From Nitrososphaerota archaeon (GTDB lineage: Archaea; Thermoproteota; Nitrososphaeria; Nitrososphaerales; Nitrosopumilaceae): DNA of 45,152 bases. A program made the translations under genes and the position numbers. The DNA lies in contig JABJDB010000085.1 in NCBI GenBank assembly GCA_018668425.1, positions 1 to 45,152 of the forward strand, written 5' to 3'. The notes beneath the pieces are model-generated. The model had not been told where the DNA came from. It did not search any database and saw only the letters and a program-made list of their open reading frames with translations. Positions 24,280 to 27,479 of this stretch are shown here, piece by piece (position 1 is the first letter of the stretch; each line of letters opens with the position of its first letter).

Positions 24280-24292
24280 ATAATAACAAGCG

Positions 24293-24299
24293 TTTATTA
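24293..24299 (+). promoter_or_regulatory. Probable TATA box of the helicase gene
   Basis: TTTATTA lies 89 bases before the helicase ATG. With normal archaeal spacing, transcription would begin near 24320-24330, leaving a 5' leader of 50-60 bases. CCTTTTTAGG (24302-24311 region) is an alternative promoter element that would still leave a leader of about 45 bases. Confidence 0.35.
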
Positions 24300-24329
24300 G
24301 ACCTTTTTAGGTATCGCGGATATCGGAAT

Positions 24330-24366
24330 AATGACGAGCAAGCAATGAAGCTTTTCGTCATTGCTT
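24330..24366 (+). promoter_or_regulatory. Two mutually exclusive hairpins in the DEAD-box helicase leader
   Basis: Hairpin A pairs AATGACGA (24330-24337) with TCGTCATT (24355-24362), and inside it AAGC (24340-24343) with GCTT (24350-24353). Hairpin B pairs AAGCAATGA (24340-24348) with TCATTGCTT (24358-24366). Both are perfect in their stems, and both need bases 24340-24343 and 24358-24362, so only one can form at a time. The element ends 15 bases before the ATG at 24382. This is the layout of a conformational switch, for example a temperature-responsive leader of a cold-inducible helicase or an autoregulatory binding site. Confidence 0.6.
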
Positions 24367-24381
24367 AAGAGAAAAAACAAA

Positions 24382-25707
24382 ATGACAAAATTTCAAGATT
24401 TAGGACTAAACGAGGACATACTGAAAGGTATTACTGATCAAGGATTTGAAGAAGCATTTCCAATTCAAGAAGCAGTAATTCCAGTGTTAATGACAGGTAG
24501 AGACGTTGTAGGACAAGCACATACAGGTTCAGGAAAAACTGCAGCATTTGCATTAGCAATGTTACAAGAAATTCAACCAAGAAACGGAATTCAGGGATTA
24601 ATCATGGCCCCAACAAGAGAACTTGCAATACAAATTAGTGAAGAAATTAAAAAATTTGCCAAGCATACAAAAATCAAAGTCGCCACAGTTTACGGCGGAC
24701 AAGGAATGGGAATTCAATTAGATGCTCTTCATAGAGGAGTAGAAATTGTTGTAGCAACCCCAGGTAGATTAATTGACCATCTAAAAAGAGGTTCAATCGA
24801 ATTAAGAGACATCACACACATTGTTCTAGATGAGGCAGATACAATGCTGGATATGGGATTTGTAGACGATATTTCATTTATTTTAGATTTAGCACCAGAA
24901 GACAGAGTAATGTCATTGTTTTCAGCAACAATGCCAACTGAAATTTTAAGATTATCTGAAGAATATCTAAAAAACCCAAAACAATTCCTTTTAGATGCAG
25001 ACGATCTTAGTGGTGAAGGAATTGACCAATCATTCCTAGTAATCAAAGACCGTGACAAATTCAAATATCTTATTGACTTTATCAAACCAATCAAAGGACA
25101 ATCCATTGTATTTTGTTCAACAAAATATAGAACAAGAGATGTGGCAAAATTCCTTCATCAAGAAAAATTTGATGCAGTAGCAATTGAAGGAGACATGTCC
25201 CAACATAGAAGAGAGCAATCAATGGGAAAATTCCGAAGCGGTAAAGCAGACATTTTAGTAGCAACAGACGTTGCATCAAGAGGAATTGACGTTCCAAGAG
25301 TAGAACTAGTAATCAATTATGATGTACCAAATGTGGAGATGGCATATTTTCATAGAATTGGAAGAACTGCAAGAGCAGGAGCTAAAGGTAGAGCAATCAC
25401 ATTTGTATCATATTCATCAGTAGGTGATTGGAATCTAATCAAACGTCAAATCAAAGTTCCATTAACAGATTTGAATGAACAAATGGGAATTCAAATTTCA
25501 ATTCCAGATCCACTAAAAAGACAAATGCCTTCAAGAAGATATGGAGGTCAATCAAGAGGAAATTATTCTAGAGGTGGACGTTCTGGAGGTTATGGAAGAT
25601 CAGGAGGTAGAGACGATAGAGGTAGAGACAACAAAGGCGGTAGAAGAAGAAATAATGACAGAGATGGCGGTAGTAAAAATAGCTACGGCGGTCGTAGTAG
25701 ATGGTAA
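24382..25707 (+). CDS. DEAD-box RNA helicase with an RGG-rich tail
   Basis: I start at ATG 24382 (MTKFQDLGLNEDILKGITDQ); an upstream TTG at 24361 would begin inside the leader hairpin. The 441-residue protein shows the Q motif (PIQE, 27-30), motif I AHTGSGKT (46-53), PTRELAIQ, DEAD (150-153), SAT (181-183), VATDVASRGIDVP and HRIGRTARAG. After about residue 385 the tail is rich in Arg and Gly (RGNYSRGGRSGGYGRSGG), a non-specific RNA-binding tail as in cold-shock helicases. It unwinds structured RNA, in ribosome assembly or mRNA turnover. It lacks a long C-terminal folded domain. Confidence 0.95.
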   Translation: MTKFQDLGLNEDILKGITDQGFEEAFPIQEAVIPVLMTGRDVVGQAHTGSGKTAAFALAMLQEIQPRNGIQGLIMAPTRELAIQISEEIKKFAKHTKIKVATVYGGQGMGIQLDALHRGVEIVVATPGRLIDHLKRGSIELRDITHIVLDEADTMLDMGFVDDISFILDLAPEDRVMSLFSATMPTEILRLSEEYLKNPKQFLLDADDLSGEGIDQSFLVIKDRDKFKYLIDFIKPIKGQSIVFCSTKYRTRDVAKFLHQEKFDAVAIEGDMSQHRREQSMGKFRSGKADILVATDVASRGIDVPRVELVINYDVPNVEMAYFHRIGRTARAGAKGRAITFVSYSSVGDWNLIKRQIKVPLTDLNEQMGIQISIPDPLKRQMPSRRYGGQSRGNYSRGGRSGGYGRSGGRDDRGRDNKGGRRRNNDRDGGSKNSYGGRSRW

Positions 25708-27020: not shown

Positions 27021-27479
27021 TTATAACAAATCTGATTTATGTAACAAATCTAAAACAGGATTCAATTCTGCAGCCAGTTGTTGTTTTTCAAGAGGTACAG
27101 GTTTTGAAAAGGTTAATGGAAATGTTACAGTTAACATGTCTTGATCAGTATGAGATATTCGAATAGAGTGAGATTGATTCATTATTTCAGATAAAAAATT
27201 CTCCCATTTTTGCAAATGTTCAGAAACTCTGGTAACATTTTGTTGTACGTTAGATAGAGTAGTATCCAAATCCGTATCAAACAGACGGAATTTGACAAGA
27301 GGAATCATCATCAATCCACCAGGAATAGGATCATGGTTTTTTTGCATCGATAAAATAATTTGTTCAGAATTTTCTTTAGGGAAAATATCACCATAATCAG
27401 GATCAAAATATCCTGCAATCATTTTTTTAGAATCATATATTCTAAAATAATCTTCATCAGATTCTAATTTCCACAACAT
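27021..27479 (-). CDS. Unknown soluble protein, 152 aa
   Basis: Not recognised. The frame opens MLWKLESDEDYFRIYDSKKMIAGYFDPDYGDIFP, mixed alpha/beta, and carries a helical middle (SNVQQNVTRVSEHLQKWENFLSEIM) and a closing helix. There is no signal or membrane helix and no cysteine. It converges with the 26313 gene (18 bases apart) and is divergent from the 27548 gene across 68 bases. Confidence 0.72.
   Translation of the reverse strand: MLWKLESDEDYFRIYDSKKMIAGYFDPDYGDIFPKENSEQIILSMQKNHDPIPGGLMMIPLVKFRLFDTDLDTTLSNVQQNVTRVSEHLQKWENFLSEIMNQSHSIRISHTDQDMLTVTFPLTFSKPVPLEKQQLAAELNPVLDLLHKSDLL

Follow-up and report, generated by a model that had tools for sequence, protein, structure and literature searches.

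A family-wide structured leader with two competing hairpins before the DEAD-box RNA helicase gene of Nitrosopumilaceae, a candidate cis-regulatory RNA

The DEAD-box RNA helicase gene in the 45,152-nucleotide stretch of archaeal DNA analysed here (the window) is preceded by a structured leader that recurs before the same gene in all 21 Nitrosopumilaceae genera that have it. We read the region from the predicted transcription start (24321 to 24325) to 24381 as the helicase 5' UTR, acting as a cis-regulatory RNA that would feed back on helicase activity, with hairpin A as the default fold and the competing hairpin B forming after unwinding. We place the probability of this reading at roughly 0.4, judged from sequence comparison. 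That the leader controls the amount of helicase made is probable.

The gene (24382 to 25707, plus strand) encodes a DeaD/CshA-like protein with an RG-rich tail. The protein has the Pfam DEAD and Helicase_C domains by which DEAD-box RNA helicases are recognised, scores 425 bits against the NCBIfam CshA model, under the 646-bit cut-off, and matches CshA (5ivl) and MJ0669 (1hv8) in the PDB. An extension of the open reading frame to a TTG at 24361 was set aside as conservation favours the ATG at 24382. TTG serves as the helicase start codon behind leaders L142, L145 and L147-L155 (genus g16) and L225-L240 (g10, g15, g18 and g19).

Upstream lies a promoter block, AAC AAGCG TTTATTA GACC (24284 to 24304, plus strand), read as a putative BRE and TATA box, in which TTTATTA (24293 to 24299) starts 89 nt 5' of the ATG. 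Among 77 same-genus leaders mean identity was 95% over this block, 55% over 24305 to 24319, 89% over 24320 to 24366 and 93% over 24367 to 24381, and the distance from promoter block to hairpin was near-constant. The spacer at 24305 to 24319 is constant in length but variable in sequence, the pattern expected where a TATA box is followed by a transcription start. The promoter block is itself more invariant than a TATA box needs, and a factor site there is possible. Start-site spacing was calibrated on 253 upstream regions taken from the window and a sister genome, which show a weak promoter peak; in the sister-genome genes the peak lies at -32 to -28. Counting 28 to 32 nt from the start of TTTATTA gives the predicted transcription start at 24321 to 24325 (plus strand), upstream of both stems and not downstream of 24366, and a predicted 5' UTR of 57 to 61 nt. 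The original prediction had called this leader unusually long for a genome in which most genes look leaderless; the promoter position agrees with the first part, while the weak peak favours the second without proving it. Between the hairpins and the start codon is an A-rich, unpaired stretch (24367 to 24381, plus strand) in which sequence inspection found no clear Shine-Dalgarno motif.

The hairpins are built from three plus-strand segments. Segment 1 (AAUGACGA, 24330 to 24337) is the 5' arm of stem A, and segment 2 (AAGCAAUGA, 24340 to 24348) is the 5' arm of stem B. Segment 3 (UCGUCAUUGCUU, 24355 to 24366) is the shared 3' arm, with 24355 to 24362 pairing to segment 1 and 24358 to 24366 pairing to segment 2. 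As had been predicted, and at exactly the predicted coordinates, both stems are perfect in the window: A joins AATGACGA to TCGTCATT and B joins AAGCAATGA to TCATTGCTT. The first 4 nt of segment 2 double as the inner stem of A (AAGC at 24340 to 24343 with GCTT at 24350 to 24353), around an AAUGA apical loop. Because TCATT (24358 to 24362) is common to both stems, A and B are mutually exclusive.

Only 1 of 3,000 dinucleotide shuffles of 24293 to 24381 gave competing perfect stems that were 8 bp or longer. The whole window holds two such places, the leader and one other, compared with none in 17 and one or two in three of 20 whole-window shuffles. The other place (27425 to 27467) is inside a minus-strand ORF (27021 to 27479), near the ORF start. 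The minimum-energy fold of the leader is A, and its folding energy is only modestly unusual (z of -1.95 and -2.21), so the case for the leader rests on conservation. Two further pairings were considered and rejected. A pseudoknot of A with B is sterically unlikely in the window, where 2 nt separate segments 1 and 2 and TCATT is shared; in g3, where the stems overlap little, the reading is conceivable. A stem C between GUCAUU (24357 to 24362) and the start region AAUGAC (24381 to 24386) was paired in 98% of same-genus cells, with covariation not beyond shuffles and a start region that is coding.

Helicase orthologues were located at 76 other places in the same genus, and across the family 21 of 22 genera have the gene, g22 being the exception. 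The leader accompanies the gene in about 150 species genomes, one per genome, and is independent of the gene upstream, which is dsbA-like in g1, g5, g11, g13, g21 and about half of g14 and is another gene elsewhere. Covariance model R1 matched 156 of 400 genomes of the class, all of them Nitrosopumilaceae (18 genera) and none outside that family; the leaders of g3, g15 and g21 were recovered through weaker model matches. On inspection, no such leader stood before helicase homologues of the other families of the class, and a search of Rfam 15 gave no match in the leader at E values up to 10. An extra R1 match in genome G010 was dismissed as a second copy or regulon member, being weak, at 33 bits, and having no similar gene downstream. 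Genome G126 has two strong matches on separate contigs (L184 and L297), of which L297 precedes the helicase, and G067 has two leader copies (L030 and L056), each before a helicase; both assemblies possibly mix strains (contamination of G067 is 8%).

Alignment A3, of 68 diverse leaders, was used to evaluate each stem. Stem A was paired in 96.8% of cells, compared with 38% or less in slid controls, and showed double changes at five of seven pairs (13 cells), a level reached in 0 of 500 shuffles. The pairing persists through versions as different as AAUGACAAA/UUUGUCAUU in g8, GACGACUGA/UCGGUCGUC in g21 (L136) and CGAUGGA/UCUAUCG in g3, and is weak in two of the three g21 leaders (L135 and L137). 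This comparison shows hairpin A to be under selection across the whole family. The proposal of a conserved structured RNA element is thereby borne out, and more strongly than it was first put: the leader forms a structure that is conserved and covaries, and it occupies the 5' UTR of a single gene class. A riboswitch-like, multi-branched conserved core was not seen in the 68 leaders.

Stem B was paired in 82.7% of cells including g14 and g15, or 87.9% without these two genera, compared with 46% or less in slid controls. Its 14 double changes were moderately above shuffles but not above the 6 to 23 of slid controls, and the case for B therefore rests on specific events. When the loop was shuffled, most genera gave p<0.05 for stem B in the majority of their sequences, and g14 and g15 did so in 0 of 10 sequences each among those with a correctly placed stem A. 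Because these helix tests confuse A with B in some rows, such as L165, L169 and L134, they were weighed jointly with the alignment-based pairing counts. Covariation in both stems had been put forward as a check; it is clear for A and statistically weaker for B.

Several of the events involve both stems. In L037 and L052 a segment-3 C to U change leaves G-U pairs in both, and in L055 and L056 the same C to U change is followed by G to A in both segment 1 and segment 2. L053 restores pairing around a deletion. In the L068-L074 clade the basal pair of A is broken by a U to G change, and segment 2, now AGCCA, pairs with UGGCU and re-forms B in a shifted register. Pair 31-61 is outside A, and its C61 always occurs with G31 (GC 9, AC 0; in alignment A1, GC 19, AC 0). 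Stem B is re-sequenced in g21 (GUGUGAUG/CGUCGCAC, and CGUGCAACGG with UCGUCGCACG) and in g3 (CCGGC/GCCGG). Such changes also bear on whether the region acts as DNA, as an operator whose inverted repeat near the start site is bound by a transcription factor. The repeat is present and its location just 3' of the promoter is suitable, but the retained G-U pairs, the register shifts, the three-way co-change of A and B and the variable spacing between arms make this scarcely credible.

Stem B is kept in 19 of the 21 genera, weakly in g3, g8 and g12, and is gone in g15 and in g14, where an inner hairpin with a UUCG loop is found. Loss of one stem without compensation, which the original prediction had held to count against it, has thus occurred for B in these two genera. 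In the helicase tree, each of the family's two deepest branches carries stem B; g15 adjoins the B-bearing g10, g18 and g19, and g14 falls inside the other deep branch. Since B occurs in both deepest branches and g14 and g15 are placed apart, B is most simply an ancestral feature lost twice. The proposed two-hairpin RNA switch is retained in part: most relatives have both stems, but covariation of B is moderate and B has been lost twice. We regard such a switch, on these comparative grounds, as likely in most genera.

The losses raise the alternative that only A matters, as a single-state 5' hairpin that would be a barrier to 5' exonuclease or would set translation efficiency, with B a by-product of the part that segment 2 plays in A, as its inner stem and AAUGA loop. 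Hairpin A is universal, covaries strongly and is the predicted prevailing fold of nearly all genera whatever the temperature, and the absence of B from g14 and g15 fits as well. However, the complementarity of segments 2 and 3 survives triple co-changes, a register shift and re-sequencing, pair 31-61 is not part of A, and if A alone counted there would be no constraint on the AAUGA loop. We consider this alternative unlikely. Hairpin A with its AAUGA loop could instead be bound, with no refolding, by an RNA-binding protein, either another regulator or the helicase. Within most genera the loop sequence and the internal loop both show good conservation, yet the loop varies freely in g14 (UUCG), g15, g3 and g21, and we judge this improbable.

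Segment 1 also contains an upstream AUG. In the window it opens a possible near-leaderless mini-ORF, ATG ACG AGC AAG CAA TGA (MTSKQ, 24331 to 24348, plus strand), 6 to 10 nt from the predicted 5' end. Translation of 3 to 6 codons from this AUG could let the ribosome melt segments 1 and 2 and so alter access to the main start. An upstream AUG is indeed present in nearly all leaders, with short frames that end in Q-stop, or in MTE-stop or MTD-stop in g16, g18, g19 and g14, where spacing differs. Against this, L024/L046, L053/L055/L056 and half of g15 have lost the AUG and still pair stem A, and those of them in g1 still pair stem B as well; the frame is not conserved, with 1-nt indels extending it to 13 to 18 codons; and the pairing of segment 1 also accounts for the AUG. 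Because several lineages lose the AUG and keep the structure, it is the structure and not the peptide that is under the stronger constraint, and control by the mini-ORF is decidedly improbable.

To compare the two folds, each stem was enforced in turn, with a heuristic assignment that misassigned g9 and one g14 row. In the window A is predicted to be favoured over B by 5.5 kcal/mol at 37 °C and by 9.1 kcal/mol at 4 °C. The predicted preference for A is about 3 to 6 kcal/mol at 37 °C in most genera, and in nearly all it holds throughout 4 to 37 °C and widens in the cold. The suggestion of a thermal switch between the hairpins finds no support in these energies, which speak against a simple flip with temperature and in favour of B forming only when assisted. 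An RNA thermometer, exchanging A and B directly with temperature, would suit a gene type that is cold-regulated in other archaea (PMC9800685, PMC4247193). Besides the predicted energies, however, the start codon lies outside both stems and is masked by neither; we take a thermometer to be very improbable.

The feedback leader that we favour would operate as follows. Hairpin A, 5 to 9 nt from the 5' end, would be the default fold. Excess helicase, another RNA chaperone or a ribosome on the 5' end would strip A, and B, with its shorter loop and a private 3' toehold (24363 to 24366), could then form and free the 5' segment. The change from A to B would alter mRNA decay or translation, and the leader would thereby report helicase activity and hold it constant. 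In the cold, with A at its most stable and the helicase occupied elsewhere, A would remain in place. Since the gene codes for the unwinding enzyme itself, feedback is the most economical interpretation. Several points weigh against it: the switch is dispensable in g14 and g15, which lack B; the conservation of segment 2 could instead reflect its place in the inner stem and loop of A; the start codon is covered by neither stem; and B may be rarely populated, given predicted energies that favour A. The fuller proposition, that throughout the family the helicase gauges how active it is by unwinding A in the 5' UTR of its mRNA, with formation of B changing translation or decay and the mini-ORF possibly exposed in one state, is more doubtful.

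Bacterial cspA-type and other RNA thermosensors use alternative leader folds in cold-response genes; the helicase leader differs from the cspA type in having no predicted temperature flip and no start-codon masking. Confirmed cis-regulatory RNAs are few in archaea (PMC7247131, PMC4247193). The archaeal ribosomal-protein leaders of S15, eL15 and L4 are likewise conserved structured mRNA leaders found by covariation (PMC7247131), but they precede different genes in different lineages, and the text of PMC7247131 contained no case of a helicase or thaumarchaeal leader. In the literature covered, which included few subscription papers, we found no cis-regulatory RNA described for ammonia-oxidizing archaea and no paper on a thaumarchaeal helicase leader. 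The helicase gene has been proposed to be important for cold adaptation of ammonia-oxidizing archaea (PMC8397731). A compact family-wide element before it raises the question of whether archaeal DEAD-box helicases regulate themselves via an RNA substrate in their own mRNA. In Synechocystis, the DEAD-box helicase CrhR controls both the level of its transcript and the stability of the protein in response to temperature (PMC3485376), a bacterial case likened here by protein type and not by comparison of leader hairpins. Similar in kind are the cold-inducible deaD leaders of euryarchaea, which share the gene type, the archaeal setting and a 5' UTR longer than usual (PMC4247193, and studies cited in PMC9800685). 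The gene is cold-regulated in Methanococcoides burtonii and Thermococcus kodakarensis (as cited in PMC9800685), and the 159-nt 5' UTR of T. kodakarensis TK0306 (deaD) contains a tRNA-Lys (PMC4247193). No sequence or structure is known to be shared with the TK0306 and M. burtonii leaders, and by description they are set apart from the Nitrosopumilaceae element, a leader of about 57 to 61 nt with two competing hairpins.
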